From the IMG/VR virus record IMGVR_UViG_3300034200_000714, positions 1 to 27,314 of that record: a stretch of 27,314 nt of DNA. One strand, 5' to 3'. This document shows, piece by piece, positions 8,386 through 27,314 of this stretch. Position 1 is the stretch's first letter. Every line of letters begins with the position of its first letter. A program made the translations under genes and the position numbers. Origin of the DNA: a virus. The notes beneath the pieces were generated by a model. That model was not told the DNA's origin. It did not search any database and worked only from the letters and a program-made list of their open reading frames with translations.

Positions 8386-8392
8386 ACCATCA

Positions 8393-8401
8393 ATTATATC
8401 A
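8393..8401 (-). promoter_or_regulatory. Extended -10 promoter for a probable leaderless transcript
   Basis: The minus strand reads TGATATAAT at 8401-8393, a full TGn plus TATAAT element. Seven bases (TGATGGT) then separate it from the ATG of the 103-residue gene, the usual distance from a -10 box to the transcription start. There is no good ribosome binding site between them. No clear -35 box is seen, which is tolerated by extended -10 promoters. It lies in the 32-base gap after DnaB and could drive the 103-residue protein, primase, SSB and polymerase. Confidence 0.5.
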
Positions 8402-8417
8402 ATGGAATTAACTAGTT

Positions 8418-10143: not shown

Positions 10144-10152
10144 TTTGGTCTC

Positions 10153-10665: not shown

Positions 10666-10674
10666 TCTACCTGC

Positions 10675-11109
10675 CTAAGAACTAATTCTTTCACCAATTG
10701 CAATTATTGAAACATCAGCAGAAAAAGCTCCAGAGGTTGCTGACGAGAATACGTTTACCTGACAAGAGTTTTGAGTAACTCCACTTAAAACTGCGTACAA
10801 ATTTGATACACCAGTTACAGATGTTACTGAAGATATAACTACTGGAGTAGTTTTAAATATTCCAGAGTAGTCAAACGATGCTGGAGCATTTGGCTGAACA
10901 GATAAGTTTGCATCAACAATTTTTTGAGTCTCTGCATAAAATGCTAAATTTGATGTTAATAGTTGAGAAGGTGTAGAATTATCTCTATATTTAATTTTTG
11001 AAAGAGTAGTACCAATTAGCTCTGAAACTCTATTTATTTCTTGAGCTATTCTAAACAAGTAAGATATGTCAAGTGGTTGACCTCTATCTGGTAATTCAAT
11101 TTGTGCCAT
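10675..11109 (-). CDS. Putative minor tail or fibre protein
   Basis: The 144-residue protein has an N-terminal helical half (ISYLFRIAQEINRVSELIGTTLSKI) and a Ser/Thr/Val-rich beta C-terminal half (FKTTPVVISSVTSVTGVSNLYAVLSGVTQ, then FSADVSIIAIGERISS). This architecture, a helical stem with a small beta head, is common in tail tip or fibre proteins. It is the last gene of the tail block before the helix-turn-helix gene. Its first residues (MAQIELP) resemble those of the preceding tail gene (MAQIRIP). The ATG follows TAGGAG, and a TGATATAAT promoter-like motif lies just upstream, so it may also be made from its own transcript. No enzyme motif. Confidence 0.65.
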   Translation of the reverse strand: MAQIELPDRGQPLDISYLFRIAQEINRVSELIGTTLSKIKYRDNSTPSQLLTSNLAFYAETQKIVDANLSVQPNAPASFDYSGIFKTTPVVISSVTSVTGVSNLYAVLSGVTQNSCQVNVFSSATSGAFSADVSIIAIGERISS

Positions 11110-11124
11110 TTTATCTCCTAGTTA

Positions 11125-11133
11125 ATTATATCA
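11125..11133 (-). promoter_or_regulatory. Extended -10 promoter motif in the gap before the last tail gene
   Basis: The minus strand reads TGATATAAT at 11133-11125 in the 36-base gap between two tail genes. A transcript would start around 11118, leaving a very short leader with the TAGGAG site at or near its 5' end. No convincing -35 box. It would drive the 144-residue tail gene and the following helix-turn-helix and replication genes. Confidence 0.42.
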
Positions 11134-11145
11134 GGTAAGTAATTC

Positions 11146-11730
11146 TTACTCAGATAAGGATACTACTCCAGTATCAAATATTTTAAACAAGTCATATACG
11201 CCTTGTGCTGAACCAGAAACTCCTAAGTATTCATTAAGTCTTGGCTGATAAGAAGTTGATGCTGATTCAAAAATTTCTAATCTTGGAATATCTTTTAATG
11301 CAACAGTTCCAAAAACTCTTACTGAAGCAGATCCAGGTGGTATGACAATGCTTGTTGTATCTTCAGATACTCTGTTATGATATTCAAAATTACCCATGGC
11401 AGATCCTGATCCCCATTGAACAAAAACGTCTGTATCGTGTTGTTTAAATTTTTGTGAATGATTGTGAGCAATAGATGCACTAGTAATTGAAGCAGAATTA
11501 TAGTTATAAATTATTGGAGTATCCCATGTTAGACTAACCTCTTCTGAAGAAATTACTGCAGTAATGTCTGACTCTAAAGGTCTATATTGACCAATGCTTT
11601 TAAGTGTATAAAGCTGTGACCAGGCTGACCACTGGTTTTTATCAACAGATATGATTCTAAATTGAAAAGCATGATCTCCATTTTTATCTGGAGTTGGTAA
11701 TTTTTCTACAGGAATTCTTATCTGTGCCAT
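11146..11730 (-). CDS. Minor tail protein with Ig/FnIII-like segment
   Basis: The 194-residue protein carries a beta-sandwich-like N-terminal half: FQFRIISVDKNQWSAWSQ, then a Pro-rich turn and VISSEEVSLTWDTP, the strand-W-strand pattern of fibronectin type III/Ig-like domains. The second half is also beta-rich and aromatic (FVQWGSG; SIVIPPGSASVRVFGTV). Such domains are common on phage tail-tip proteins and probably touch the host surface. It begins MAQIRIP after a TAGGAG site with 8-base spacing, and overlaps the upstream stop by one base (TAATG). It is translated in the run hub, Pro-rich protein, GKNIVAKYL protein, this protein. The exact fold is inferred from pattern. Confidence 0.72.
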   Translation of the reverse strand: MAQIRIPVEKLPTPDKNGDHAFQFRIISVDKNQWSAWSQLYTLKSIGQYRPLESDITAVISSEEVSLTWDTPIIYNYNSASITSASIAHNHSQKFKQHDTDVFVQWGSGSAMGNFEYHNRVSEDTTSIVIPPGSASVRVFGTVALKDIPRLEIFESASTSYQPRLNEYLGVSGSAQGVYDLFKIFDTGVVSLSE

Positions 11731-12905
11731 TAGATAACTCCTATGCCAAACCTATATTCTACATAGCTTGTAGAATTTTCTCTCTTTAAAATTGGATTTT
11801 CATCTAATGTTTTTACATATTCGGCAGCAACAAGAGAATATAATGGATTATAGCTAGAAACATTTTCAAACCTTAAGCCATCATACAATACAAAATGATC
11901 TGCAACAACATCATTAGAATTATTATGAATACAAGTGTAAATTCTTACACCATTTACAGAACTCCAAGAAAAGTTTTGATCTGTTGTAAATTCTGAAAGG
12001 CTTTTTGTAATAACCTGATATCTTTTTAAATTTATATCTGTATCTTGAAGTACAATGTCTACAGAAGCTTTTGGTGAATCCTCTATTGAATTATTTAAAA
12101 ACTCTAATTTAATTTTAACATAATCTGGGTCTGAAGCAGATCTAGCGGTGCTAATTACTGAAAATGCTAATTTTATTTGATCCGTTGGTAAATTATTTCC
12201 CAAGTTTAAACTGATAGAATTATTTTCAATATAATATGAAGCACTGCTAGAGGTGTTTATTACAGACGAACTTGCAGAAACTCCAGAAAGCACAGAAGTA
12301 CTTCCAGAAACAAGTAGGCTTTTGTCTAAATATCTTGGGGGCTCTGCCCTATTTACTCTATCTGAATATTCAAATATTGGAGAGTTGCTATTTATGAAAA
12401 CAAAGTCTGCTAATGTGTAAATATTTTCTGGTGAAATTTCTAAATATTTTTCAATATTTCCAGGAGTTACATCATCAATTCTAAGAGGACCTATGTATGA
12501 AACGGTTCCAGAATTGTCTTGATTATTAGAATATGCCCAAGGTTCTGAATTGTTAAATGTTGATATAATTCTGCTATCAAAATTACCAGCTACTGCATTT
12601 GTTGCTGCTGGATATATTCCAAGTTCAGTTATTTGATATCTTTGTTCAATAGGAAGCTCTGCTTTAAAAACAATTTTTTCAACTTGCTCATTTGTTATTG
12701 GATCTAATTCTTTTAACAAGCCTTTTGATAAAATTGGAACTCTTGCTACTTCAAATTCTAAAGACTGAACACTTGCAGAAAATGTTGCAGAAGAAGATGT
12801 TGGATATGGCTGTCCACCAACGCCAATAGCAATATGACTTGCAAATTCTGGAGCTTGGTTTAAAAGATATTTTGCTACAATATTTTTACCATTTGTCGTA
12901 ATCAT
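11730..12905 (-). CDS. Minor tail protein, GKNIVAKYL-type N-terminus with jelly-roll-like domain
   Basis: The 391-residue protein begins MITTNGKNIVAKYLLNQAP and continues with SHIAIGVGGQP, a start I associate with minor tail proteins of actinophages. Residues 1-120 look like an attachment module. Residues about 190-350 are a Ser-rich beta domain whose end, SSVNGVRIYTCIH, then FVLYDGLRFENVSS, has the pattern of a carbohydrate-binding jelly roll. A short C-terminal part (YVEYRFGIGVI) ends the protein. It is likely part of the tail tip or fibre, and may bind host surface sugar. Its ATG overlaps the upstream stop by 4 bases (ATGA) after an AAGGTGGA site. Neither catalytic residues nor a chaperone domain were seen. 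Confidence 0.78.
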   Translation of the reverse strand: MITTNGKNIVAKYLLNQAPEFASHIAIGVGGQPYPTSSSATFSASVQSLEFEVARVPILSKGLLKELDPITNEQVEKIVFKAELPIEQRYQITELGIYPAATNAVAGNFDSRIISTFNNSEPWAYSNNQDNSGTVSYIGPLRIDDVTPGNIEKYLEISPENIYTLADFVFINSNSPIFEYSDRVNRAEPPRYLDKSLLVSGSTSVLSGVSASSSVINTSSSASYYIENNSISLNLGNNLPTDQIKLAFSVISTARSASDPDYVKIKLEFLNNSIEDSPKASVDIVLQDTDINLKRYQVITKSLSEFTTDQNFSWSSVNGVRIYTCIHNNSNDVVADHFVLYDGLRFENVSSYNPLYSLVAAEYVKTLDENPILKRENSTSYVEYRFGIGVI

Positions 12906-13798
12906 GATTCCACCTTTTCTATCTTATATATTGTACCATTTGTGTCTATTAAAACCTCTACCTGCTGATTTTTTTCTAAATTAATAAGTTCTATAACTAA
13001 ATCACCATTTGTATCAATATAGTAATATCCTTTTTGACGAGTGATTATTTTATTATTTTCATCAAGATATTGATAAGTTGAGTCTAATTTTTGCAATCTT
13101 ATATAGTCTTCTTGAGGTATTTTATCTTCAATATTAATTGTATAAATGCTAGTAAGAGGCTTAAACTTATCCATTATACTTAATTGTTTTGATATATCAT
13201 ACTTTTTTCTAACTTCAGACAGGTTTGAAATAATTGAGTATCTTTGATTAATTCCCTCAATAGTGTCATGCCTTTCAGCTATTGATAATTCTATTGCAGA
13301 AATATTTTCAAAAAGAAGTTTTTGAATTTGTTCTGCATCAAATTGTGGAACTAAAGAAGATATGTCAAAAACATTCCTTGCTGCAATTCTAACAGGGGAG
13401 GGGGCAATGGTAGCCACTGGTTCAGGAGTTGGCTCCATAAATTGGGGTACTTCAATTGGTGTATCAATTACCTTTGGTGGGGTCGTTGAAGAGTCGTTCT
13501 TTGTAGATCTAGGTGGGGGAGTTGGAGGTGGAGGAGTTGGAGGTGGTGGCGGAGGTGGGCTTGATGGAATTGCACCAGCACCGCTAAAATTGGGTCCAGC
13601 CTGAGCATACATTGCTGCTAGCTTAGAGGCTTGTGCAGCAGCTTGTGCTGCTTGTGCAGCAGCTTGTGCTGCTTGAGCACCGTCACTCTGAGGTTTCTTT
13701 GGTGGCGGAGGTGGGGGAGGAGGAGTTTTTCTGGGTGGTGGAGGTGGTGGATTTCTAGAATGACCCGCACCTGCTGGACCTGAATTTTCGCCTGGCAT
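12902..13798 (-). CDS. Poly-proline and Ala-Gln repeat tail-associated protein
   Basis: The 298-residue protein has three parts. Residues 1-110 are low complexity: proline runs of 6, 8, 7, 4 and 3 (NPPPPPPRK, TPPPPPPPPKK, SPPPPPPPT) around an Ala/Gln block (AQAAAQAAQAAAQ) at about 41-57. Residues about 110-150 are a Pro/Val/Ile-rich linker. Residues about 150-298 are a folded-looking helix-then-beta domain (KLLFENISAIELSIAERHDTI; YYYIDTNGDLVIELINLEKNQQVEVLID). The position between hub and tip proteins makes it a tail-tip component; a flexible arm is a plausible shape. The ATG follows GGAGG with one base between upstream stop and start. Its 5' half is much richer in G+C than neighbours. Poly-Pro runs of this length usually need EF-P for translation. 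Confidence 0.75.
   Translation of the reverse strand: MPGENSGPAGAGHSRNPPPPPPRKTPPPPPPPPKKPQSDGAQAAQAAAQAAQAAAQASKLAAMYAQAGPNFSGAGAIPSSPPPPPPPTPPPPTPPPRSTKNDSSTTPPKVIDTPIEVPQFMEPTPEPVATIAPSPVRIAARNVFDISSLVPQFDAEQIQKLLFENISAIELSIAERHDTIEGINQRYSIISNLSEVRKKYDISKQLSIMDKFKPLTSIYTINIEDKIPQEDYIRLQKLDSTYQYLDENNKIITRQKGYYYIDTNGDLVIELINLEKNQQVEVLIDTNGTIYKIEKVES
13631..13672 (-). repeat. Perfect 21-bp tandem repeat (two copies)
   Basis: Two identical 21-base units lie head to tail at 13631-13651 and 13652-13672, followed by a degenerate start of a third (TTGAGC). They encode the Ala/Gln repeats of the poly-proline protein with no frame change. Such repeats expand and contract by slippage, so this arm may vary in length among relatives. 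Confidence 0.85.
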
Positions 13799-13799
13799 A

Positions 13800-16700
13800 C
13801 TAAACCTCCATTACCCTTAATTGACTTTTAACATTTGAAGAAGATCTTCCATATTGGGCAGATATTACAACAAATCTTTTATTCTCATCTACCATTTTAA
13901 CACCTTCTGGTAAATCAAAATTAATTTTAACAATATCTCCAAGTTGAATGTGTGCTGTTGCAAAAGTATCTATCTCAAATACCTTTCTTGGTCTAATAGT
14001 TTTATCAAGAATCCATTTCATAATATCTTTTGCAGAATCTTCATTTTGAATATAAACAGAGTCTAATGAAAATGACTTACTTCCATAAGTAGATCTACTA
14101 TTTTTAATACTATCATATATCTTTTCAGATCTTTCTGGAGAAACAATTAAATTGTTGGCAACAACTGGGTCAGAAAAGTTTGATAGTTCTTTAAAGTAAT
14201 CATCAACAGTAAGAACATTAGAAATATTCTGAGTAAACGTAATTCCTTGAATCATAATTCTATTCGTAGAGCTTTCACTTAAATTTATTGCTTTGTCTGT
14301 TGTGTTAAAGATTAAGAATTCAGCTCCATAAGATCCTGGCAAAAAGCCTGAAATTTGATAAGATTTTTCTACGGTAAATGGAGGAACAAATTTTGCTATT
14401 AACGCTGGGTAAGCTTGGTCATATTTAATATTAAAATATGCACACTCTCTTAAGATAGTTCCAAATTCTTCAAAGTAAAAATCTACAGTTGGCTTTGTCT
14501 CTGTACTAATAGAAGATAGAAATGTATTTTGAATTACTGATGGAAGAGAATATTTTTTTAAAGATTCAGCAGATATTGTATTCTTTACTTTTTCTCCCAA
14601 AGAAACATCTTCTTCTTTTATATTTTTTAAAGCAAAAATATTTTCAAACATACATTTGGTAGATCCTCTTGTAAATAAACAAGTCTTTAAACCACTGCTT
14701 GGCATTTGTAAAGGATTGTTATCAGACACTCTTCCAATTAATGCATTATTTAAATATATATTAAAATCAATTCTATAAATTCCATTTGCATTTCTCTTAA
14801 TGTCTGCATCTAAAGATAAGTCATAGACTGCTATATCTTGAGAAATTAATCTATCTTGACCAACAAACTTTCCTTCATCAACAAGGATTCTTGCAAGAGC
14901 TCCAAAAAGTTTTTTAGGGACTGCAATATTTATCTTCTTATCTACTTGCGTAGAATATGGAGTTCTTTCTACTTTATAAAAAATTATATTTTCAAGAACC
15001 TGATCCGTTGGAAGAATGCCTCCACTTGAATCTGAACCATAGTATTTAAGAACGTCTTCAGACATAGATGCTATTTCAAGATAGTATCCAGAGTTTGTGT
15101 TTGTATCAACCATGTATCCAATTCCACCAGCTCCACCAGACAAGGTTTTTAAATTAGAGCTTGTAGTGGCTTTATCAATTTCAAAAAGATCTGTTGAGTT
15201 TAAAGCAGATTGAGTTTTATCATCTATAATTTTTCCAATAATTCTCATTCTTGTTCCAACATGTCTGTAATCTGTGTCTAAATCTTTATAAACATAGCTT
15301 ATTAAATCTCTACTACTTGTTGCAGACAGGTCTGTACTTTGTAGTGATGGAACTGGATATGGTCCACTGAATATTAGTGCAGATGATTGAATTCCTGCAA
15401 CGTCTTGCTGATTAAAACTAGAAAAGCCTTCCGATCTTGTTGACTTTTTCATAAAATTAGCAATCTTACTAGTTATTGAAGACTGTCCTTGTGAAGCCGT
15501 ATCGTTACCAAGGGGGTTTGCTGCAACTGAATTAGACACTGGATCATAAGTTAAAAATTCTGTGGGAACAGTACTAAATATGTTTTTAGAATCCATTCTA
15601 AAAGATTTTCTATTGTTTGAATCTTCCCAATAAGGATTTAGTCCAGCACTGTGAGCTGTAATAGCTGTTCCAAACTGACCTCTACCATGAGACCTTACTT
15701 CTCCATTTTTATATTTAACATTTTCTTCTAAACCATCAAAGTTGGCTCCAGATGCATTTTCATAATATGGTTCTGTATAGATTCTAAGAAGACCAGTTAG
15801 AACCATTTTTCCATTAAAAATTAGCTTGGAAAAGTATTTTTGATACTCGTTGTTATTCGTTATCCATACAAGACCATTTGTTGCAGAAGCAGATGGAGAA
15901 TCTACCTGATACTGCTGTGCATCATATCTTATAATTTCTCCATTAGCAAATAGATATCCCTGAAATCTTGGCAACCAAAAAGCACTTTCTCCAACATCAA
16001 TTGTGTTATTTATTATTTCATTATTTACTACAGTTGGTACTGCACTTCCAAGACTAGTTCCCAATGGCACTGCTCCAAGTGCATATCCAAGATTTGCTGT
16101 TGGTTGGTTTATTGTTCTTGCCTCTTGTTGATCTCCAAGTTCCCAAAGTATTGCACTTTTATAGCCATAGGTTTTTTCACTAAGACTTAAACTTGCTTGT
16201 TCTAACTTTGATACTTCTCTTTGTATGTATCTGGTTGTGTAATTAATTTTGCCATCATTTAATATCTTTGTTTCAAAACCAGCAATTCCCTCAATGTTTG
16301 GAACAATGTTACCAGTTCTTTGTCCGTAAAGAGTTGTTAGTCTTTCAGAAATTGCATCGTTATCATCTCTTACAGAAACATCTGGCATTAAGTATTCTTT
16401 TGGCATAATAACAAAATTATTATATTCATCAAAAAACATTGAAGTCTGAGTAGCCTGTGCAAGTCTTTGTAAAACTTCTGAAACAGAAGCGTCTGGCTCA
16501 ACAAAGAAGAATGGAATTACTGGATCGTTTGCAGTATTAATATTTTTAAATACATAATTACTAAATCCAATATTGTCCAAAAGTAGTGCTACTGCTTTTG
16601 TAAGGGTAGAGTTTTGCAAGAATATAGATGTGGCATTATTAGATTCTAATATAAAGAAAGCATCTCTTAAATTTAATGAAACATCTTGCATACCACTTGT

Positions 16701-18284
16701 AGCAACTGCAGCATTTTCTGAATAGAATGTTTTTAATGGAATAAACTTATCATATCCATTAACATCTAAAATAGATTCATAAAAATCAAACTTAATTTGT
16801 GGCTTAAGAATATTAGCAATAATGCTTCCATCTCTATTTGCAATACCAAAAACATTTAGCTCTGTAAAGGCTCCATCATGGTTTGATAAATTAATACCTC
16901 CAGTTGAAGCTACAAGTCCACCAACTGGAAGACCAAAGTCTGTTGCCATAATATTTTTATTAATATCATAGTCCAAAACATAATCTGTTATATCAACTTT
17001 TAATCTTGGTGATATCTCAATTAGTTCAAATGGCTTATTTGGAGCATACATTGTTTCTACAATAACTCTAATTCCTTTAATAAAGGCAAACTCTCTATAA
17101 ATATCATTACTTCCAACATTAAAATAGCTTGGACCTAATATTTTTTTAACTAGTCCAACCCTTTTTGTATCATCTTCTTCTAATAATGAAAATCCATATT
17201 CTGCGTTATAAGTTTTCCAGTCTTGATCTTCTTCACTCCAAACATATAGTGTCCCTGACTCAGAACTTGAGCTTCCAACTATGTAAGCATCTCCATTTAT
17301 AATATTTCTATTAGTATAAAGTGGATCTGGAAGTTGACCAACTGTGTCTAAATATCCATAAAGGTGAAAGTTTGTTTTAAAGTTTTCAGGCACTTTGATA
17401 CCATAATAAATTTCTACATGACCATCCCAAGGAACGATTCTTGAGCCATCTCTTCTTGTAGAGTTTTCGTTAAAGTCTATTGCGTCTATCCAGTTGTTAT
17501 CAGCATTAAGATATTGAATTTTCCATTTTTTTGGAACTGATGATTTTGTTATATCTTGAAGCGGGTCTGTAACAAGATTGTTATTGGTTCTAATTCTGCC
17601 TGGAACTAAAAATTCTCCATTTATTCCAACTGCTGATGGATCTGCTAGATTAGTTTGCATTTTTACAACTATTCTATTTGTTGCAACTTCATTTTTATAA
17701 GTAACAAAAGGCACACAATCATTTATTTTATATGAAGGATTTCCAGTACTAAAGAATGTTGCAGTTTGACTTGATATACCAAATTCTTGTCCATTTTCTT
17801 TTCTATATGAATTCCAATACTTAAACTTATCAAATCTTGAACAAAAATAATATCTTGGTCTTTTTCCAGATCTAATACTATCTACAAACTTTGTATTGTT
17901 TATATTTGACTCTCCAAAGTAAAGGATTTTATTAATTCCAGATCTTGGTCTAAATGGCTTAATACAATCTTTTAAAGAGTAGTAAAGCTCTCTACTTGTT
18001 TCTCCTGAATTAAAAGTTAAAGGCTCATTTGGATCTTCTGTTTTATATTCAGAAATATAGTTAGAGTCCAAAGCATTTGTATAAACATCAGCATTATCTT
18101 GGGAGTCATATTCTGGATAAAGTGTTCTATAAATAACACTTGCACTATCTGGTCTAAACCTATAGTTTCCATAATTGTCAAGGTTTAATAAATCATTTTG
18201 ATTCCATTCAGCAACTACTAAAGAATCTACGCTAATGCTATTGTTTGTTTGGATATGATCTATTAAGTCTGTATCTAAAAACAT
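13800..18284 (-). CDS. Tail hub/tip protein with lectin-like domain
   Basis: The 1494-residue protein follows the tape measure and distal-tail genes, the usual place of the hub (Tal). Residues about 1-420 are beta-rich, with a galactose-binding-like part (KKWKIQYLNADNNWIDAIDF; VPWDGHVEIYYGIKVP). Residues about 490-635 resemble a tail hub (SGMQDVSLNLRDAFFILES; EVLQRLAQATQTSMFFDE). Residues about 1080-1225 look like a LamG/concanavalin-type domain (ARILVDEGKF; YRIDFNIYLNNALIGRV; GSTKCMFENIFALKN). The C-terminus (HIQLGDIVKINFDLPEG, about 1450) is like hub ends of siphoviruses. It likely forms the tail tip and binds the host surface. No peptidase or lysozyme motif was seen. Its start overlaps the previous stop by one base (TAATG). 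Domain limits are approximate. Confidence 0.85.
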   Translation of the reverse strand: MFLDTDLIDHIQTNNSISVDSLVVAEWNQNDLLNLDNYGNYRFRPDSASVIYRTLYPEYDSQDNADVYTNALDSNYISEYKTEDPNEPLTFNSGETSRELYYSLKDCIKPFRPRSGINKILYFGESNINNTKFVDSIRSGKRPRYYFCSRFDKFKYWNSYRKENGQEFGISSQTATFFSTGNPSYKINDCVPFVTYKNEVATNRIVVKMQTNLADPSAVGINGEFLVPGRIRTNNNLVTDPLQDITKSSVPKKWKIQYLNADNNWIDAIDFNENSTRRDGSRIVPWDGHVEIYYGIKVPENFKTNFHLYGYLDTVGQLPDPLYTNRNIINGDAYIVGSSSSESGTLYVWSEEDQDWKTYNAEYGFSLLEEDDTKRVGLVKKILGPSYFNVGSNDIYREFAFIKGIRVIVETMYAPNKPFELIEISPRLKVDITDYVLDYDINKNIMATDFGLPVGGLVASTGGINLSNHDGAFTELNVFGIANRDGSIIANILKPQIKFDFYESILDVNGYDKFIPLKTFYSENAAVATSGMQDVSLNLRDAFFILESNNATSIFLQNSTLTKAVALLLDNIGFSNYVFKNINTANDPVIPFFFVEPDASVSEVLQRLAQATQTSMFFDEYNNFVIMPKEYLMPDVSVRDDNDAISERLTTLYGQRTGNIVPNIEGIAGFETKILNDGKINYTTRYIQREVSKLEQASLSLSEKTYGYKSAILWELGDQQEARTINQPTANLGYALGAVPLGTSLGSAVPTVVNNEIINNTIDVGESAFWLPRFQGYLFANGEIIRYDAQQYQVDSPSASATNGLVWITNNNEYQKYFSKLIFNGKMVLTGLLRIYTEPYYENASGANFDGLEENVKYKNGEVRSHGRGQFGTAITAHSAGLNPYWEDSNNRKSFRMDSKNIFSTVPTEFLTYDPVSNSVAANPLGNDTASQGQSSITSKIANFMKKSTRSEGFSSFNQQDVAGIQSSALIFSGPYPVPSLQSTDLSATSSRDLISYVYKDLDTDYRHVGTRMRIIGKIIDDKTQSALNSTDLFEIDKATTSSNLKTLSGGAGGIGYMVDTNTNSGYYLEIASMSEDVLKYYGSDSSGGILPTDQVLENIIFYKVERTPYSTQVDKKINIAVPKKLFGALARILVDEGKFVGQDRLISQDIAVYDLSLDADIKRNANGIYRIDFNIYLNNALIGRVSDNNPLQMPSSGLKTCLFTRGSTKCMFENIFALKNIKEEDVSLGEKVKNTISAESLKKYSLPSVIQNTFLSSISTETKPTVDFYFEEFGTILRECAYFNIKYDQAYPALIAKFVPPFTVEKSYQISGFLPGSYGAEFLIFNTTDKAINLSESSTNRIMIQGITFTQNISNVLTVDDYFKELSNFSDPVVANNLIVSPERSEKIYDSIKNSRSTYGSKSFSLDSVYIQNEDSAKDIMKWILDKTIRPRKVFEIDTFATAHIQLGDIVKINFDLPEGVKMVDENKRFVVISAQYGRSSSNVKSQLRVMEV

Positions 18285-18913
18285 TATACTTCCTCAAGAG
18301 AAATAGAAATATCCCAAAGGTCTCTATCTTTGACAATGGGACTTTCTCCACTATGGTCTGTAACATTTCCTCTTTTAATAACATTGTAGCTAAAGTCTGA
18401 AATAAAGACTTCTAGTACATCTGAATATTTATCAAGTTTTTCATATATGTCTGAAATAAAATTTTGAGGTTTGTCATAAGAAAGGAACATATAAAAAGAT
18501 CCAGGATTTGAACTATACCAGTCTAGGAGTTCTGCACCACCTGCACCACCATCTACTGTATATTCTATTAACGAAAGGTCTGTTGCAACTCCGCTTGTGT
18601 TAAATTCTGGGTCTCCATTAAAAGATCTAGATGGCAATAAGTTATAAGAAAAAGATACATTCATCTTATCTGCAATATGATAAGAACGCATATGACCATT
18701 TACCATTCTTTTTCTATTTTCAAGCCTATTGGTTTTAAAACTAATTTCACTTCTATTATGGTCAGAAAGGATTATAAAGTCCTCTCTTTCTATTCCAGAA
18801 ATTTGTGGAACACCGCCTGTAATTCCATTAGAATTGTTAGAGAAAATAACTGCTTGTGGTCTTATCCACTTTTTTCTGGCATTTAAATATCCACCAGGAT
18901 TATTGATAATCAT
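18284..18913 (-). CDS. Distal tail (Dit-position) minor tail protein
   Basis: The 209-residue protein lies between the tape measure gene and the hub gene, where siphoviruses encode the distal tail protein that joins tube and tip. It is beta-rich with scattered aromatics, for example IILSDHNRSEISFKTNRLE and HIADKMNVSFSYNLLPSR, and ends in a strand-rich part (VEFISDFSYNVI is approximate; the protein has VLEVFISDFSYNV). No recognised catalytic motif. The assignment as Dit is by position and secondary-structure style, not by a diagnostic sequence. The ATG overlaps the tape-measure stop by one base; its AAGGAG site is 12 bases upstream, so coupling probably matters. Confidence 0.7.
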   Translation of the reverse strand: MIINNPGGYLNARKKWIRPQAVIFSNNSNGITGGVPQISGIEREDFIILSDHNRSEISFKTNRLENRKRMVNGHMRSYHIADKMNVSFSYNLLPSRSFNGDPEFNTSGVATDLSLIEYTVDGGAGGAELLDWYSSNPGSFYMFLSYDKPQNFISDIYEKLDKYSDVLEVFISDFSYNVIKRGNVTDHSGESPIVKDRDLWDISISLEEV

Positions 18914-21900
18914 TAGTATCTATTACTCCTTAAATTTCCTCTATTTTGATTTGAAAGCTTTGCCATAACTACATTTGCAATATCATCTGGAGAAGCATTT
19001 GTTCCAGATACATTTACATTTACGTTATATGTACTATTATACATTGGTGAAGAGTTTGAAACAACGTTTGTGGTATTAACTGGAATATTAGTTACGCTTT
19101 GCCCTGGGATAGAGTATGTTGGAGAAGAAATTCCTTTTCCTACTGCAGGAAATACTTGACTATTTAGCTGGTTTAAGAATCCTCTATTTTGATCTGCTAC
19201 TGATTTTCTAACAACAAATTCTCCAGGGGTTAACAGGGCAGAAACTTTGTCTGTCATACCAGTTCCTGGAACAGTAAATCCATTATTCATTCTTAGTGCA
19301 GGAGGGGCTTCTCTAGAACCTTTATAAGCAACTCCACCATATGCCATCTTTATGCCCTTAAGTTTATTAAGAACTCCTTTCTTAGTTTGCTGAGCAGGAC
19401 TAGCTACTTTAGGAGGAGTAGGAGGAGTGAGACTAGTAACTGTTGGTTTTGGTTTTGTTGTGGCTGCACCCTTGGCTGTTTTAGTTGCGGCAGAGTTTAA
19501 AGGATCTACGTTTGCTCCAGGATTTGCTGCATTATACATATTTAAAGAAGATTCGTATTCTACAAGTGCTGCTTGATCTGCTTTAGAAAGGTTTGTTTTT
19601 TTCTTTAAAGCGTCAATAGTCTTTTGTTGCTCAATAAGGTACATTCTTGTTTCTACTTTTTCACGCTCTTTTGCAACGTCTAGCTTTCTTTGTTCAAAGC
19701 CTAATAATTTATCTTGCACACCTTGAAGCTCAATTCCCTTACTATAAATTCTATCTTGAATTGTTTCTATTTCAGATTCAATACCCTTTCTTGTCATCAA
19801 TTTTCCATTTATAGAAACTGTTAATGCATCTAAATCTGTTTGTCTTTGTTTTTCAAGTGCTGCTCTAGTATCTTCAATTTGATATTGTGCAGATTGCTGT
19901 TGCATATCTCCAGCTATACCTGCTGCTGCTGCAATGTCTCCAGAGGCAAGGGCAGAAGCTAAACTAATTCTAGACTTTTCCTGCTCATTAACTCTTGAAT
20001 TTGATTCTAAAACTTTATCTAATGCTTCTACTCTTAAGTTATAAGCATCATTAACAGCCTCTTCTTTTTTAGAAAGTTGCTCTAGTCCTTTTTGTCTTAA
20101 ATTAACTTGTCTTTCTTCTAATTCAATTTCTCTATTTAATTGCTTAAGTCTTTCATTAAACCCTTCTGCTTCTTTATCAATAAGCATTTCTTGAAGTCTA
20201 AATCTTTCCATAAGCATCTTTAATAGGTTTTCTTCTTTATTGTTGCCACCAGACTTATCTCCACTAGTAGTTCCTGGCTTAGGTCCTAAATTGCCAATGC
20301 CAACTTTTAATTTATTCAACAATGCACTTTCTAAAGTTTGCTTTTGTTCTTCACTAGTTCCTTCTTTGGCATTCAACTTTTTATTAGTTTCTGTATCCCA
20401 CGCAACTGACATAATAATTGGAATTGAAACTGAGGCTGGTAATGCATTTATTGCAGACATTATTTCGCTATTAAATATGTTCATACCAGTTGCTTTAACT
20501 AGAACTTCTTGAGTAAGTGGACCCTTTGCTGCAGCACTTTGAAGCTGTTCATAGGTTGAGTACAACTCTTCTATTGCTTTTGGATTTGGATTTTTAAAAT
20601 CAATCACGGTAGTAATGTCTGGAAGAGATTCTATGACTCCTAATTTAAATACAAGTTCATCAATTTCTTCAGTAGTCAAACCTTGTGTTTGAAAATTTAT
20701 AACCATTTGTGCATCTGTTGGGCTCCATTCTCCAGTCAGTAGCTTCCCCCAAGATGTACTTCCAACTTCTTCAAAATCTTTTATTATTTTATTAATTGCT
20801 TCTTCACTGTAGGCTCCAGATTCCTCAAGCATTGTTTTAACTTGTGTTTTTTGATTTTCTATTGCTTTGAGTGCTGGGCTTTCTATCCAAGCAAAACCAA
20901 GTATAGAGTCCTGCTTTTTTTGTGCTTCTATATCAGCAGTTGCAGTTAGTGCCTGATTATTTTCAAATCCAAGAATTTGTGCATTTGCATCTAAAGTATT
21001 TCCTGTTACATTCTTAGAATCATCAAGAGCTTTTTTATAGTTTTCTAAAGTTATCGTTCCTTCTTTAAAGGCTGCGTTAAGAAATTCAACTGTATTAAGC
21101 TGTGCAGAAAGTGCAGAATTATTTACAGTAAGAACTTCTTCTAGTTTATATTGATTTTCAAATCCAGCACTTCCGCCCTTGAACACACTAAAGATTTTTT
21201 GCATTTGATTTAAATCATCGTATGCACTCTTTGCATCATCTCTTATTTGAGAAATGTCAACACTTGGAGTTATTTCTGCTTGAATTTTTAAGATGTTTTC
21301 TGCCGTAAGTTTTTCTCCATTTGGACCCATAAGTTGCGATATCTTGCCAGAAACTTCAACTGCAAGTCTTTCGTTTTCTAAGGCTGTTCCAATATCTATC
21401 GCTATTGCTCTAGCCTCTTCTGCAGTTATTGCACCTGCAATAATAGCTTGAGAAAGTTGATTTCTTAAAGCAGTAGCTGCATCTTTTCCAGAAGATTCTA
21501 CAAAAGAAATGTCTTTTAGCAATGCTTTTCCTGCATCAGATTGCATAAACTGGCTAGAAACTTGCTGAGATTCTTCAGAAACTTCTTGACCTGTAGCTTT
21601 TTCTGCAGCTGCCACCATTGCCTGTTGTGCACGAGTTTGTCTTCCAAATGTTTCTGCAATAGCGTTAGTAGAATCTGCTGTTCCATACATTGCCGCTGCA
21701 AGTTTTCCTCCAGCCTTTGATGCATCGTTAATTTGTTTGTTTAATTTATACGCACCAAATCCAACTAAGGCAATTGCAGCTCCTGCTCCAGACAAAGGTC
21801 CAATAAATTTTAAAATGTTTGGACTTAGTTTAGATAATTGAGGAAATAGCTTTTTAAATCCTTCTCCAACTTGTCCAGTAGAATCTACTGCTTTTAAACT

Positions 21901-24900
21901 TACCTTTTGAAACTTCATTAAAACTGCTGTTACAGATTTTTGAGCTGCACTAAAAGCTGCTGTACTTGCAGCAATCTGTCCAAACATACCCATTTCTGGA
22001 GCCATTGCCATAGGAAGCATTGAAGCCCCTAATCCAGCTGCCATTGGAGCTATTCCTGAAAGCATTCCGCCAACACCTGTTGAACGACCTGAAATTTTGG
22101 CTCCTTGACCTTTATTTGAAAAATATTTCGCACCTTTTTGTTCTTGAACAACTCTTTCTGGTTCTTTTTTTGCAAAATATTGAACTCCAGCCATTCCACC
22201 CTTGTTTAATTTTTGAGAACCATTAATAGCAGTTAACAAATCATAATTGTTTTTAGTAGATTCTTTATTTACAACAAATTCTCCAGGAGTAAGCATTGCT
22301 GGAACGGTATCTGTATTACCCATACCTGGAACTATATTTCCTTGATTAAATCCTTGTACTCCAGATTGGGTAATTAAAGATGGTAACCTAGTTCTTAAAT
22401 CACTTGCTACTCCAGTTATTTCAGAAGTTCTATTTCCAACAAGTAATTCATGCTCTTTTGCACGAAGCCTTTTTACTCTATTGTTTCTATCAGACATTAC
22501 AGGGTGTTTATATGACGCTTTTTGCACATCAAGAGCAAGGACTCCAGATCCAACCATTTCATCAATAAATAATTGTTGAATTTTTTTATCTGGAAAAGTT
22601 TTATTTAAACGTTTTTTAGCATTGTTGTACTCTCTTGTTTTATTTGCAAGAACTTGTTCAAAGGTCCAATCGCTACCAATAGTGGGATTAGGTCCAGGTC
22701 TAAAGGAACGGGCAGGACTCCATCCAGCCATTGCAAGTTCTCTTGCATATTCTGCAGTTCCAGGAGTAAGTTTTTTAATCTTAGGGGTCTTCATTATTTT
22801 TCTTAATCTGCTAATATCTTTCTTTTGAGTGTCCAACCCCATAAAGCCATATGAAAAATCTTTTAAAGTTGGATTGCTAAGATCTCCAATAAATGGTGAA
22901 AAATCTAAATCTCTTTTAGTTGTATAAGATCCTGCCCCACCCTTGAAATTTAATTTCATTCCAAATAGATCTTCATATCTTCCTTCTTTAATTGCAGAAA
23001 CAATTTTCTTTTGCTGTGCATATGGTAACTCTTTATTGCTCGTTGATCCTAAAACAGTTCCTCTAGTTGCCCTAGTTTTTTGAGTAAGAGGATTCATCAT
23101 TCCTAAAATAGTATCCATTTCTGGAGTTTCTCTTACATTTCTAGAATCAAAGGCAAAATTATGAAGAGCACTTTGTTGGGCAAGTCTTTCTTCTTTTCCA
23201 GGTCTTACTCTTCTTCTAAGAGATTTTCCAATAAGTGCTCCAGCATTATACCCTGGAACTTTTCCACCAGCATTATACGGCGTTGAGGCTCCAAATTTTT
23301 CCCTATAAGTCACTCCGTCTCTTTCTGTTTCTAGTACCCAGTATGGTTTTCTATTTGGATTAGATGGAACTATTTGTTTAACTTGAAATGGAAGATTTCT
23401 TTCTTTAAAAAAAACATTTGCGTCAGTTGCAAATTTTTGAGCATCGCCTGGAAGAGAACTTAATTCAGGACCACCACTTTCTTTAATAAAATTTGAAATA
23501 TCTTTTTTTGCTGGTATGCGAAGACCTACAATTCTTGTAGAATCTTCAACATTTGGATATGCATCTCTAGCCACCGTTTCTAAAATATCATCTGTTAAAT
23601 CCACATTGCCGATTGGCTTACCTGATGCGTCAAGTCTACTTTTATATCTTAAAAGTCCCATAGCCATTTTTCTTCCAAATTCTTTTTCAGTTACTTCTGG
23701 GTAGGCTTGTCTAAATGCAGTAGTTTGATCAAAACTAATTAGTCCTCTAGAATCTCTCATTGCTATAGCTGCATCGTCAAGTGTCATCTTACCTTGTCCT
23801 CTGTTAGCTGCTTGATTTATTGTCTTAAGAATTTTAGACCAGTTGTTACTAAGACCTTCTATTGGAATTCCGTGTGATAAAAGGTCTCTTGCAAAAAGCC
23901 ATCTATTTGAAGTTTTTGTACCAAATAATTCTTGAAATCTAGCAATTGTTTGTATGTTTTCATTTCCACCTAAGTGTGATTTTTGTAAATCAGGACTTGA
24001 TGACACAGGTGCTCTAGATACTACTTGAGAATCTCTTCCAAGAAGTTCTCCAAAGCCATGTGGTTCATCCATTAAAGAGTCAAGGTCTCTTGGTGTGAGG
24101 TTTCTATTTCCCCCGATCCTACTGGCAGATTTTGCAGCCTGTCTAGCATGCCAAGCTTTTACAGCGTTTCCTATATTAAGATATTGAATTCCTTTTGCTT
24201 TTCCACCAACATTTAATCCTTGAGGATTTTTACTATCATTGATATTGTGAAGTAATCCAAGATTGTTTTTAGTAGCTTCTTTATTTACTACAAATTCCCC
24301 TGGTGTAAGCATTGCTGGAACCGTGTCAGTGTTTCCAGATCCTGGAACAGTTGTTCCATTTGACATAAAGATTGGTCCACCAGAATTTCTTTTTTGAACA
24401 CCTCTTATTACAACCTGGCTAGTTTTTGCAGATACTCCAGCAGCTCCAGCAGCACCAAAAACTTCAGGGAAATCTCTAGTTGCACCAGCTTGAGTGGCAA
24501 TCATTGCAGCATATGCCTTTGTTAGATTTCCAATTGAAGCAGCGGCAGTATTTCCAACCATTGCTTGCTTAACAAGAGTTTCATTTAATATTTGAGTTGG
24601 ACCTATGAGTTGTTGAGCAGCCATTGCTGCATCCATTTCTGCAAGACTTAAATATTTTGCACTTTGTGTAACTGCTTTAATTGCACCTAATGGACCACCT
24701 TTTATTAATCCCATTCCAAATAAAGATATGCCCTGTCCCATTTTTGCAAGGGTTCCAACAAGGTTTAAGAATAAACCAGTTAACATTGTTACTGCTGGAA
24801 CAACAATGCCAACTATAACTGCACCAATAGCAGCAAATTTCTTTTGACCATCTGATAATCCATTAAAAGCTTCTGCAATTTTTGTAGCAAGATTAACAAG

Positions 24901-26433
24901 TGGAATTGCTAATTTAACAAAAATTTCTCCAATAGGGGCAATTGCTAATTTAAATCTTTCTATTGCCCCCGTTAATTGCACACCAAAAGATTCTTCAATA
25001 GTTTTTAATTCTTTGTCTGCTGTTGCAGCAAGTTGTTCTGTACTATATCCTAATGTTGCAATAACTTGTTGAGCTTGAGATCCTTCTCTAGAAATATTTT
25101 CAAACAATGCTCCAAGTTTTGCATATTGAAATTTTCCAAATACTTGTTCAAGAGCTTGTTGTCTTGAAAACTGATCTAGAGAAGCAAGAGCCTGTGCAAA
25201 AGATTGAACAGTACCCATAAGGTCTCCCTTGTTTGCCTCAATAATAGATTGAAGATTTATTCCCATTCCAGAAAGCATCGCTGTAGCTTGCTTTGTTGGA
25301 TTGATCAAAGATGCAAGACCAGACTTTAATGCGTTAGCACCTTCTGCTGCATCAACTCCACCTTCTTGCATTGCTGCAAGGAATACTGTAAGATCTTTTA
25401 CGTCTCCACCAAGACCTTGAATAACTGGTGCAACACGAGGAATTGCTGCAGAGATATCTTGCAAGGAAACAACCGTTTGGTTTTCAACCATATTTAAAAA
25501 GTTAATAGTGTCTGCAAGGTCTTGTCCTGATAATCTAAATGCAGACTGTAAAGATATTGTAGTTTCTAGTGCTGCATTTTGATCCATTTGACCAAGTGTT
25601 GCAAGTCTTGTTGCTTGAGTAACTGAGTCAGTAAGTTCTGTACCCTGTCTACCAGCAGCAGCAGCTTGAGAGGCAAGACCAATAGTATCTTTTACTGCAA
25701 TTCCATACTTTGTATATTCAGCAGCAAGACCTTTTACTGCCTCAAGGTTTTGATTTAATTCTGCTGGAGTAGTAAATAAGTCTCCATATACCTTTTTAAA
25801 TCCAACAACTTGTTTTTCAAGATCCATAAAGGTCTTACCAGCAACTGCTCCGAATATTGTAAGAGGTACTGTAAAACCAACCATAAGCTGACGACCAGCC
25901 CATTGAACATTTTTACCAAAGTTGATTAACTGTGTAGTTCCTTGCTTAAACATTGAAGACATAATTTGTGCTTTTTGTCCAGCAATAGCAGCCTCAGTAG
26001 AAAATGCAGCAAGAGGTCTAACTGCTAAAGCATCTTGAAATCCATTTGCAGCAGCAGATGTTGCTATAAATTGTGTTTGAAGCCTTCTTGCACGTTCTGA
26101 AGCAAGTGCCATAGTTTCTGCTGCAATAGCACTATTTTTATTATATTTTGCACTAAAAAATTGACCCAGGGAGGTTTTTCCCTTGGTCAAAGTTTTATCT
26201 AGAGTTGCAGCAGCAGTTTGAAGTCTTATGGTTTCTGCTGTAAAACTTCCAGTTTGATTTATTGCTTGTTGAAGTGCTTTTGAAAACTTTGCAGTAAATG
26301 CTGCTTGGTCTACATTGCCTTTGTTTAGAGCTAATTGAAAAGCATTTATTTGTGCTAGAAGAGCCTTAAGCTCAGAGGAAGCAGACCCTGTATTGATCTC
26401 AACTTCAATAATACCTTTTGCAATTTCAGCCAT
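18913..26433 (-). CDS. Tail tape measure protein (2506 residues)
   Basis: This is the longest gene in the window. The N-terminal third (about 1-500) holds a typical tape measure core: FMDLEKQVVGFKKVYGDLF at about 203-221, alanine/glutamine-rich helices and QEGGVDAAEGANALKSGL. Hydrophobic stretches at about 530-585 and 1455-1560 (for example AAIGAVIVGIVVPAVTMLTG) could insert in the host membrane during DNA delivery. The C-terminal part has a coiled coil at about 2060-2310. Three copies of a PGEFVV-type repeat occur. At the usual 1.5 angstrom per residue, a tail of up to about 370 nm is predicted. No lysozyme, NlpC/P60 or M23 peptidase motif is visible. Starts after a GAGGTGG site, overlapping the chaperone stop by one base. 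Confidence 0.96.
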   Translation of the reverse strand: MAEIAKGIIEVEINTGSASSELKALLAQINAFQLALNKGNVDQAAFTAKFSKALQQAINQTGSFTAETIRLQTAAATLDKTLTKGKTSLGQFFSAKYNKNSAIAAETMALASERARRLQTQFIATSAAANGFQDALAVRPLAAFSTEAAIAGQKAQIMSSMFKQGTTQLINFGKNVQWAGRQLMVGFTVPLTIFGAVAGKTFMDLEKQVVGFKKVYGDLFTTPAELNQNLEAVKGLAAEYTKYGIAVKDTIGLASQAAAAGRQGTELTDSVTQATRLATLGQMDQNAALETTISLQSAFRLSGQDLADTINFLNMVENQTVVSLQDISAAIPRVAPVIQGLGGDVKDLTVFLAAMQEGGVDAAEGANALKSGLASLINPTKQATAMLSGMGINLQSIIEANKGDLMGTVQSFAQALASLDQFSRQQALEQVFGKFQYAKLGALFENISREGSQAQQVIATLGYSTEQLAATADKELKTIEESFGVQLTGAIERFKLAIAPIGEIFVKLAIPLVNLATKIAEAFNGLSDGQKKFAAIGAVIVGIVVPAVTMLTGLFLNLVGTLAKMGQGISLFGMGLIKGGPLGAIKAVTQSAKYLSLAEMDAAMAAQQLIGPTQILNETLVKQAMVGNTAAASIGNLTKAYAAMIATQAGATRDFPEVFGAAGAAGVSAKTSQVVIRGVQKRNSGGPIFMSNGTTVPGSGNTDTVPAMLTPGEFVVNKEATKNNLGLLHNINDSKNPQGLNVGGKAKGIQYLNIGNAVKAWHARQAAKSASRIGGNRNLTPRDLDSLMDEPHGFGELLGRDSQVVSRAPVSSSPDLQKSHLGGNENIQTIARFQELFGTKTSNRWLFARDLLSHGIPIEGLSNNWSKILKTINQAANRGQGKMTLDDAAIAMRDSRGLISFDQTTAFRQAYPEVTEKEFGRKMAMGLLRYKSRLDASGKPIGNVDLTDDILETVARDAYPNVEDSTRIVGLRIPAKKDISNFIKESGGPELSSLPGDAQKFATDANVFFKERNLPFQVKQIVPSNPNRKPYWVLETERDGVTYREKFGASTPYNAGGKVPGYNAGALIGKSLRRRVRPGKEERLAQQSALHNFAFDSRNVRETPEMDTILGMMNPLTQKTRATRGTVLGSTSNKELPYAQQKKIVSAIKEGRYEDLFGMKLNFKGGAGSYTTKRDLDFSPFIGDLSNPTLKDFSYGFMGLDTQKKDISRLRKIMKTPKIKKLTPGTAEYARELAMAGWSPARSFRPGPNPTIGSDWTFEQVLANKTREYNNAKKRLNKTFPDKKIQQLFIDEMVGSGVLALDVQKASYKHPVMSDRNNRVKRLRAKEHELLVGNRTSEITGVASDLRTRLPSLITQSGVQGFNQGNIVPGMGNTDTVPAMLTPGEFVVNKESTKNNYDLLTAINGSQKLNKGGMAGVQYFAKKEPERVVQEQKGAKYFSNKGQGAKISGRSTGVGGMLSGIAPMAAGLGASMLPMAMAPEMGMFGQIAASTAAFSAAQKSVTAVLMKFQKVSLKAVDSTGQVGEGFKKLFPQLSKLSPNILKFIGPLSGAGAAIALVGFGAYKLNKQINDASKAGGKLAAAMYGTADSTNAIAETFGRQTRAQQAMVAAAEKATGQEVSEESQQVSSQFMQSDAGKALLKDISFVESSGKDAATALRNQLSQAIIAGAITAEEARAIAIDIGTALENERLAVEVSGKISQLMGPNGEKLTAENILKIQAEITPSVDISQIRDDAKSAYDDLNQMQKIFSVFKGGSAGFENQYKLEEVLTVNNSALSAQLNTVEFLNAAFKEGTITLENYKKALDDSKNVTGNTLDANAQILGFENNQALTATADIEAQKKQDSILGFAWIESPALKAIENQKTQVKTMLEESGAYSEEAINKIIKDFEEVGSTSWGKLLTGEWSPTDAQMVINFQTQGLTTEEIDELVFKLGVIESLPDITTVIDFKNPNPKAIEELYSTYEQLQSAAAKGPLTQEVLVKATGMNIFNSEIMSAINALPASVSIPIIMSVAWDTETNKKLNAKEGTSEEQKQTLESALLNKLKVGIGNLGPKPGTTSGDKSGGNNKEENLLKMLMERFRLQEMLIDKEAEGFNERLKQLNREIELEERQVNLRQKGLEQLSKKEEAVNDAYNLRVEALDKVLESNSRVNEQEKSRISLASALASGDIAAAAGIAGDMQQQSAQYQIEDTRAALEKQRQTDLDALTVSINGKLMTRKGIESEIETIQDRIYSKGIELQGVQDKLLGFEQRKLDVAKEREKVETRMYLIEQQKTIDALKKKTNLSKADQAALVEYESSLNMYNAANPGANVDPLNSAATKTAKGAATTKPKPTVTSLTPPTPPKVASPAQQTKKGVLNKLKGIKMAYGGVAYKGSREAPPALRMNNGFTVPGTGMTDKVSALLTPGEFVVRKSVADQNRGFLNQLNSQVFPAVGKGISSPTYSIPGQSVTNIPVNTTNVVSNSSPMYNSTYNVNVNVSGTNASPDDIANVVMAKLSNQNRGNLRSNRY
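19165..19290 (-). repeat. Tape measure PGEFVV repeat, copy 3
   Basis: Encodes MNNGFTVPGTGMTDKVSALL, then TPGEFVVRKSVADQNRGFL, at about residues 2382-2422, close to the C-terminus. It is more diverged (DKVSALL; VRKSVAD) but keeps the VPGxGxTDxV and TPGEFVV core. Confidence 0.82.
22226..22350 (-). repeat. Tape measure PGEFVV repeat, copy 2
   Basis: Encodes NQGNIVPGMGNTDTVPAML, then TPGEFVVNKESTKNNYDLL, at about residues 1362-1402. It is closest to copy 1, sharing NTDTVPAMLTPGEFVVNK exactly. It is followed by LNKGGMAGVQYFA, which resembles the LNVGGKAKGIQYLN segment after copy 1. Confidence 0.85.
24243..24365 (-). repeat. Tape measure PGEFVV repeat, copy 1
   Basis: Encodes MSNGTTVPGSGNTDTVPAML, then TPGEFVVNKEATKNNLGLL, at about residues 690-730 of the tape measure. 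Compare copies 2 and 3. Shared core: VPGxGxTDxVxAxLTPGEFVVxK plus a following N-rich helix. Confidence 0.85.
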
Positions 26434-27097
26434 TATGTAACCACCTCATATTCCAAGCCTTCTCCAATACCGAAACCAGCTTTTCTGGCTGCAGCACCTT
26501 GTAATGCAAGAATATCATTAGGATTTGATGTAGCACCGTTGCTATAAACTCTAGCCTTCATCTCTTCCCATTTATTTTCAGACGAACCAGAATCAAGATT
26601 CACTCCCTGAAGTGCTGCCATAAATTTCTTACTTTCGTAATCTTCTTTATTTTTAGCTTCTAGTATTGCTACTAGTTCAGGCATTGATATGCTTTCTTCC
26701 ATTTCAGAATAATTCTTCCAGAATCCCAGAAGAAATACTCTTGATTCTATCTCAGCAAGATCTAGTTCGTCCCAACTAGAGCCGCTGTTAGTGCGTTTGG
26801 GTCATTTAACTGAATCCCTGCAGCCACTTCAATTACCTTGTACACAGTTGGAAGATCCATTATATCTTCTAACAGCTCCTTAGTTGCTAATTCTGCATTG
26901 TATTGCTTCATTGCAATAACAGCACAGTTTAACAATAGATCCATTGATTTGATATTATCTTCTGCAATTTTTGGATCACTAATCTTTTGAAACTCTTTCA
27001 TAAAATCTCTCAATAAAGAAATTTTAAGTGGTTTCATAGAAATAGTAGAACCATCTAATAGTTCTACTTCTACAACTTCATATACACTAGTTGCCAT
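26433..27097 (-). CDS. Tail assembly chaperone G-T fusion made by -1 frameshift
   Basis: Reading shifts by -1 at CCCAAAC (26801-26795), joining 101 residues of G to 120 residues of the overlapping frame, a predicted product of 221 residues. The shifted frame is open from the heptamer through WDELDLAEIESRVFLLGFWK and the MEESISMPEL segment to TAA at 26435-26433. The T part is helical and acidic/basic, ending in GFGIGEGLEYEVVT. The in-frame ATG at 26702 has no convincing ribosome binding site, so separate expression of T is unlikely. In lambda-like phages the G-T product recruits the tail tube protein to the tape measure. Its stop overlaps the tape measure start by one base. Confidence 0.88.
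26761..26780 (-). other. Hairpin downstream of the slippery site
   Basis: An exact inverted repeat TCTAGTT / AACTAGA with a 6-base loop contains the zero-frame stop codon of chaperone G. It has no U-run, so it is not a terminator. It may pause ribosomes for the -1 shift; the stem is AT-rich, so any effect could be modest. Confidence 0.5.
26762..27097 (-). CDS. Tail assembly chaperone G (unshifted product)
   Basis: The 111-residue protein lies two positions before the tape measure gene and is the zero-frame product of the chaperone locus. It has a beta start (YEVVEVELLDGSTISMKPL) followed by helices (LRDFMKEFQKISD; IKSMDLLLNCAVIAMKQY; DIMDLPTVYKVIEVAAGIQL), the layout of siphovirus tail assembly chaperones such as lambda gpG. 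It is thought to keep the tape measure soluble while tube subunits assemble. A slippery CCCAAAC is 10 codons before its stop. A perfect AGGAGGA site precedes the ATG, and an extended -10 promoter lies about 26 bases upstream, so it should be strongly expressed. Confidence 0.88.
   Translation of the reverse strand: MATSVYEVVEVELLDGSTISMKPLKISLLRDFMKEFQKISDPKIAEDNIKSMDLLLNCAVIAMKQYNAELATKELLEDIMDLPTVYKVIEVAAGIQLNDPNALTAALVGTN
26795..26801 (-). promoter_or_regulatory. Programmed -1 ribosomal frameshift site
   Basis: The transcript reads C CCA AAC in the zero frame, a canonical X_XXY_YYZ heptamer, which re-pairs as CCC AAA after a -1 slip. A TGA in the -1 frame lies just upstream, so the shift has to occur at or after this point, and the zero-frame stop TAG follows 30 bases later. 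A perfect 7-bp hairpin at 26761-26780 (TCTAGTT with AACTAGA, 6-base loop) begins 14 bases downstream and could stimulate slipping, though the spacer is longer than usual. Confidence 0.88.
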
Positions 27098-27122
27098 TTA
27101 TTCCTCCTATAGAATATATTCA

Positions 27123-27131
27123 ATTATAGCA
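27123..27131 (-). promoter_or_regulatory. Extended -10 promoter for the tail chaperone/tape measure operon
   Basis: The minus strand reads TGCTATAAT at 27131-27123, a perfect extended -10 element. A transcript would start near 27116, giving a leader of about 19 bases with a consensus AGGAGGA before the ATG at 27097. It lies directly after the terminator of the upstream gene, so it restarts transcription for the long tail operon. The -35 region (TTTATT at 17-base spacing) is weak and overlaps the terminator U-tract. Confidence 0.62.
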
Positions 27132-27143
27132 TAAATGCCTTAT

Positions 27144-27180
27144 TAAATAAACAATGCCCACCCTTTTTAGGAGGTGGGCA
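27144..27180 (-). terminator. Intrinsic terminator after the probable major tail protein gene
   Basis: On the minus strand TGCCCACC and GGTGGGCA form an 8-bp GC-rich stem (27180-27155) with a loop that can pair further in part. It is followed by TTGTTTATTTA, a U-rich tract. It lies 21 bases after the stop of the upstream gene. It should end most transcripts from the tail tube gene, with the next promoter immediately following. Confidence 0.8.
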
Positions 27181-27201
27181 AAGTTTCTATATTTAATTTT
27201 T

Positions 27202-27314
27202 TTACGGACCAACGACACGATCAACGATCTTGCCATAGGAACCATTGGATGCTGGAAGTAAACGGAATGTAACTTCATACATAGAAGGTTCGTCACGCTT
27301 TGCAGAAACAGTTA
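27202..27314 (-). CDS. C-terminus of probable major tail (tube) protein (partial)
   Basis: An open frame enters from the window edge and ends with TAA at 27204-27202. The last 36 residues are TVSAKRDEPSMYEVTFRLL, then PASNGSYGKIVDRVVGP, a beta-rich C-terminus. Position directly before the tail assembly chaperones, its own terminator, and codon choice richer in C-ending codons (CGT, GTC, ATC, TTC) than its neighbours all fit the highly expressed tail tube gene. The fragment itself carries no diagnostic motif, so the product name rests on gene order. Confidence 0.72.
   Translation of the reverse strand, partial: TVSAKRDEPSMYEVTFRLLPASNGSYGKIVDRVVGP

Follow-up and report, generated by a model that had tools for sequence, protein, structure and literature searches.

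A conserved terminator-promoter junction predicted to uncouple the tail-tube gene from the chaperone and tape-measure genes in Stanwilliamsviridae-like phages

The window analysed here is the whole of a 27,314-base virus record (IMG/VR IMGVR_UViG_3300034200_000714), in whose list of open reading frames the genes all lie on one strand and are closely spaced. The junction of interest is read on the minus strand at the high-numbered end of the window, and opens with the 3' end of a tail-tube (major tail) gene (27202-27314), represented by its last 36 residues, with the rest of the gene beyond the window. The tube stop codon (27204-27202) is followed by a hairpin, TGCCCACCTCCTAAAAAGGGTGGGCA (27155-27180), a T-rich tail, TTGTTTATTT (27145-27154), a 13-nt spacer, AATAAGGCATTTA (27144-27132), and an extended -10 box, TGCTATAAT (27123-27131), from which a transcription start site would be placed at about 27116-27117. 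A Shine-Dalgarno sequence, AGGAGG (27103-27108), precedes the ATG (27097-27095) of the first tail assembly chaperone gene (26762-27097, 111 aa), which belongs to phrog_10504 and matches annotated tail assembly chaperones. A second, overlapping chaperone frame (26433-26798, phrog_10474), counted as 121 residues from 26798 with no in-frame start assumed, lies in the -1 frame of the first, and the tape measure gene (18913-26433, 2506 aa; family search with its N-terminal 811 aa only) is the last named gene of the unit that would be served by the promoter. We also observed a 10-base palindrome, GAATATATTC (27121-27112), across the expected start site, which 20 of 80 relatives also carry upstream of their chaperone start.

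Past the first chaperone stop, the -1 chaperone frame remains open over 109-115 codons in almost every complete distinct sequence; in the Streptomyces phages examined the figure is 98-100 codons. This arrangement of the two frames fits a programmed frameshift; a classical slippery heptamer was not identified.

The naming of the upstream gene as a probable tube gene, made from the letters of the window, is supported by its relatives. A family search with the 36-residue fragment returned no match, and the full-length tube gene of one relative (L007/L166), which is phrog_2175-like, encodes a protein 42% identical (96/228) to the major tail protein annotated in Streptomyces phage Blueeyedbeauty. 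The window's tail genes as a whole are similar to those of Streptomyces phages in the family Stanwilliamsviridae, and the order of the homologous major tail, chaperone and tape-measure genes is the same, as in a Stanwilliamsviridae-like tail block.

The hairpin behind the tube gene has the properties expected of an intrinsic (Rho-independent) terminator. Its stem consists of 9 pairs, 6 of them GC, closed by an 8-nt loop (27180-27155), and it ranks first among the 15 terminator-like sites found in a scan of 7400-27314 (shuffle mean 10.1, sd 3.7). The 46 nt from 27190 to 27145 fold at -21 kcal/mol, compared with a shuffle mean of -8.6 (sd 2.17), which corresponds to z = -5.71, and none of 200 shuffles folded equally well, so that the stability of this GC-rich stem-loop exceeds chance. 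A T-rich tract stands right behind the stem, although in the window it is interrupted by two G/A in ten positions. A search of 26400-27314 against Rfam gave three matches, all sub-threshold (E 0.29, 0.64 and 0.9) and far under the gathering scores, and a known RNA family was rejected for this region.

Downstream of the hairpin, a TGnTATAAT sequence at a set distance before the chaperone start codon points to an extended -10 promoter of the sigma-70 type. The motif is no rarer than chance within the window, where 55 matches with at most one mismatch compare with 52.96 in shuffles (40 of 100 shuffles reach 55), and the box is convincing because it is conserved in relatives. The sequence-only reading had described a weak -35 region overlapping the terminator tail; the overlap holds for the -35 position, which at 17-nt spacing falls inside the tail (27146-27151), whereas a recognisable -35 box does not, since this position carries TTTATT with only 3/6 matches. 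A promoter scan that demands a -35 element did not return the 27131-27123 site among the matches listed. Over 50 distinct contexts the mean best -35 match was 2.64/6 compared with 2.50 in shuffles, as expected of an extended -10 promoter that would act independently of a -35 element. The same comparison led us to reject a -35 box borne by the hairpin itself, for which TTGTCG, TTTTCA or TATACA stand at 17-nt spacing in some loci only.

To place these signals in their relatives, we searched IMG/VR with the chaperone protein, which yielded 127 loci, and kept the best 80; the locus sets used in this work overlap and hold near-identical contigs, and counts of distinct sequences are given where possible. 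TGnTATAAT was present within the last 60 nt upstream of the chaperone start in 80/80 of these best loci of the 127, and over the 80 sequences compared the box lies 22-30 nt upstream of the start codon. The hairpin comparison covered 80 sequences, window included (55 distinct; L006, with too little upstream DNA, was left out), and a strong hairpin with a T-rich tail was found in 79 of them. Taken with the folding energy, this conservation supports the strong terminator that had been predicted at the end of the tube gene. The accompanying claim that the U-tract directly abuts the promoter proved literal for 33 of the 80 loci, in which the string TTTTGTGCTATAAT makes the T-tract continuous with the -10 box and the 3' arm of the hairpin falls inside the promoter spacer; in the window the two are 13 nt apart. 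In a second, overlapping locus set, the gap from the core hairpin to TATAAT ranged from 3 to 11 nt in one group of loci and from 18 to 27 nt in a second, which includes the window, with two loci at 41 and 56 nt.

The hairpin is conserved in pairing as well as in position. Of the cells in the 36 distinct hairpin cores, 94.9% are paired, and two-sided changes occur at 7 of the 10 pairs. No shuffle among 500 reached the observed value in four of the five covariation measures; for the last (further pair types), 10 shuffles of 500 did so, and every measure fell when the partners were slid. Because the shuffles ignore relatedness and the cores were selected by folding, we take this covariation as support and not as proof. 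An exception comes from a single contig (L055/L140), in which a 134-codon gene is inserted between the tube and chaperone genes: the tube terminator is kept and followed by the box TGCTACAAT, and the chaperone gene keeps TGCTATAAT without a hairpin, which suggests that a chaperone promoter would be needed in its own right. The inserted protein matches Pfam Polysacc_synt_C above the cut-off and Cupin_2 below it, and cargo genes may insert at this junction.

The tube gene appears to have a start of its own. Among 71 loci with enough sequence (53 distinct), all 53 distinct sequences have TATAAT or TATACT within the 115 nt ahead of the tube start. With a putative promoter thus ahead of it in relatives and a terminator behind it, the tube gene is probably a one-gene transcription unit, and an excess of tube protein, as had been proposed, would fit this arrangement, since relatives carry that putative promoter. 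An AGGA...GCC element (TGAGGAAACGCC-like) then follows in 52 of the 53 distinct leaders, beginning near the expected tube mRNA start (L082-L161), and GAGGAAG...GCC occupies the equivalent site upstream of the major tail gene in Streptomyces phages (L162, L163, L183-L191); it is possibly a leader signal of the tube gene. A conserved fold of this leader was rejected: with simple base shuffles z was -1.8 or lower in only 4 of 42 distinct leaders, and one leader in this set of 42 (L088) had clearly been given a wrong -10 position, for which reasons we claim no leader structure.

The same pairing of signals recurs elsewhere in the virion-gene block. Searching with the tape-measure protein gave 145 loci, of which the best 80 were kept, on contigs mostly shared with the chaperone set. 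Downstream of the major capsid gene, identified by Pfam Phage_capsid and PHROG matches, a terminator was present in 48/48 distinct sequences, followed by TATAAT in 48/48 and by the full TGnTATAAT in 40/48; downstream of the tube gene the corresponding figures were 53/53 for the terminator and 52/53 for TATAAT. No terminator was found downstream of the connector gene (0/52 distinct sequences) or after the gene preceding the tube gene (0/51), the latter being followed by TATAAT in 27/51. These two genes form a limited control, because in most cases the next gene follows them directly or almost directly (with gaps of 0 and 78 nt in L166) and little intergenic room is expected there. In four long records, TGnTATAAT lay 5-31 nt past 9 of 24 coding-strand terminators, compared with 0 of 28 opposite-strand terminators, and the records held 3, 2, 2 and 2 such pairs against a shuffle mean of at most 0.03. 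TGnTATAAT was also commoner on the strand of these genes in 14/14 records (15:3 to 7:3).

We consider it quite probable, from the sequence evidence above, that the junction serves as transcriptional punctuation, separating the expression of high-copy virion proteins from that of the genes downstream. The intrinsic terminator would close the tube transcript, apparently a one-gene unit with its own promoter as judged from relatives, and the -35-less extended -10 promoter, whose -35 position sits in the terminator tail, would open a separate transcript covering the chaperone and tape-measure genes. A siphophage tail is built from hundreds of tube subunits and few copies of the tape measure. The signals are predicted to terminate and initiate transcription in the cell, tube mRNA would exceed tape-measure mRNA, and the tube protein, of which each virion should contain hundreds of copies, would be decoupled from proteins needed in few. 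The near-universal hairpin and the invariant box (79/80 and 80/80) strongly support the proposed split between the tube gene and the chaperone and tape-measure genes. The footprint of a polymerase at the promoter would extend over the terminator tail, and a polymerase paused on the T-tract would reach the -10 box; some mutual interference between polymerases terminating and initiating here is expected because these footprints overlap, and each could thereby hinder the other. Read-through and initiation might then compete, as had been suggested.

Other readings of the junction were weighed against the same evidence. The hairpin might instead be a partial attenuator, with chaperone and tape-measure mRNA arising mostly from read-through at a lowered level and the promoter acting as a minor or early booster. 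We regard this as unlikely: the interrupted T-tract of the window, the short T-tract (TTTTG) in 33/80 relatives and the close order of all genes on one strand speak for it, but an exact TGnTATAAT in 80/80 relatives exceeds the needs of a minor element, and the promoter is retained where the inserted gene of L055/L140 parts it from the hairpin. Stable GC-rich 3' hairpins can protect mRNA and the T-tracts are modest in some loci, so that the hairpin could be read as a 3' stabiliser or processing site of the tube mRNA; a T-rich tail nevertheless stands behind it throughout and a promoter follows, which stabilisation alone would not require, and this reading seems quite improbable to us. In the window, CCTCCTA of the hairpin is complementary over seven bases to TAGGAGG at the chaperone Shine-Dalgarno sequence, which might silence read-through mRNA and leave only promoter-made mRNA translated, but among the 36 distinct cores CCTCC is confined to a single type, that of the window, which 7 sequences share; we rejected such pairing as a conserved mechanism and give the reading very little credence. 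A chance coincidence of hairpin and TATAAT in an AT-rich gap, for which the equal frequency of TGnTATAAT-like matches in the window and its shuffles could be cited, is contradicted by the conservation, the covariation and the recurrence behind the capsid gene, and is hardly credible.

Comparable arrangements exist in known phages. In 11 Streptomyces phages examined among 127 matching records, a hairpin with a T-rich tail stands between the major tail and chaperone genes in 11/11, and a -10-like box follows 26-49 nt past the hairpin in 11/11; no such hairpin lies upstream of the major tail gene in any of the 11. The box is TGnTATAAT in five, TGGTAAACT in four and TGGTAAGAT with TATAAT in one, and in Blueeyedbeauty it is TAAACT with TTGACC 17 nt upstream. 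The structural block of Blueeyedbeauty carries such a hairpin at 3 of 19 junctions, namely after the capsid gene (with TGCTATAAT), after the next gene (with a poor tail) and after the major tail gene. These Stanwilliamsviridae (Blueeyedbeauty, BoomerJR and others) thus share with the window the gene order, hairpin, T-rich tail and -10-like box, but differ in hairpin sequence and in the 26-49 nt gap, and most Loccivirinae examined carry TAAACT-type boxes instead of TATAAT.

Among the matches listed from the openly licensed PMC literature, no title or abstract dealt with the transcription of this junction in these phages. A mapped precedent is Listeria phage CKA15, in which an intrinsic termination site follows the tail tube gene and the chaperone unit is flanked by its own start and termination sites (PMC12282133). 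It resembles the window in the site behind the tube gene and the separate chaperone unit, although CKA15 is contractile-tailed and the available part of that report does not mention signal overlap or recurrence behind the capsid gene (PMC12282133). In Cluster O mycobacteriophages such as Corndog, a stem-loop terminator is predicted directly behind the major tail subunit gene, a likeness by prediction only; a downstream promoter is not mentioned in the accessible text (PMC4351075). The present junction is a conserved, compact case of a known arrangement.

The geometry also recalls polymerase recycling. Once it has terminated, E. coli RNA polymerase can remain on the DNA and start again from promoters close by (PMC6978380; PMC6978322; PMC11347151, in the portions available), and in T7, T3 and SP6 the distance from a terminator to the closest start site ranges from 14 to 1742 bp (PMC11347151). 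The window shares a promoter close behind a terminator; recycling was shown for the E. coli polymerase in single-molecule work (PMC6978380; PMC6978322; PMC11347151), whereas the likeness here is one of sequence geometry. By analogy, a polymerase releasing tube or capsid mRNA at the T-tract might stay on the DNA and restart immediately on the next unit, being already against the -10 box, most literally in those relatives in which T-tract and box are joined; we hold such a hand-off to be a speculative extension with a slim chance of being correct. If true, the output of rare assembly proteins would be a set fraction of termination events behind an abundant one, a hard-wired control of stoichiometry behind both capsid and tube genes. 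The junction is also a natural template on which to examine reinitiation by a terminating polymerase at an overlapping promoter.

Under transcriptional punctuation, a large, mostly uncultured phage group would split its virion-gene block behind the capsid and tube genes, the two that should yield the most abundant products, by means of a compact, covarying terminator-promoter element. The probable effect is that the supply of bulk tail protein is set separately from that of the rare tail-length ruler, which would explain simply, and in a testable way, what fixes the proportions of virion proteins in phages recognised chiefly through metagenomics.

Further exact TGnTATAAT sites were noted in the window at 8401-8393, 11133-11125 and 10222-10214 on the minus strand and at 12561-12569 on the plus strand. 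The first two lie just upstream of open reading frames that begin at 8385 and 11109, and long relatives have equivalent sites; the 10222-10214 site is intragenic, yet kept in relatives. A perfect TTGACA-17-TATAAT match occurs at 8243-8215 on the minus strand, within the 8074-8385 reading frame and just upstream of the GTG start region of the 7199-8152 open reading frame.
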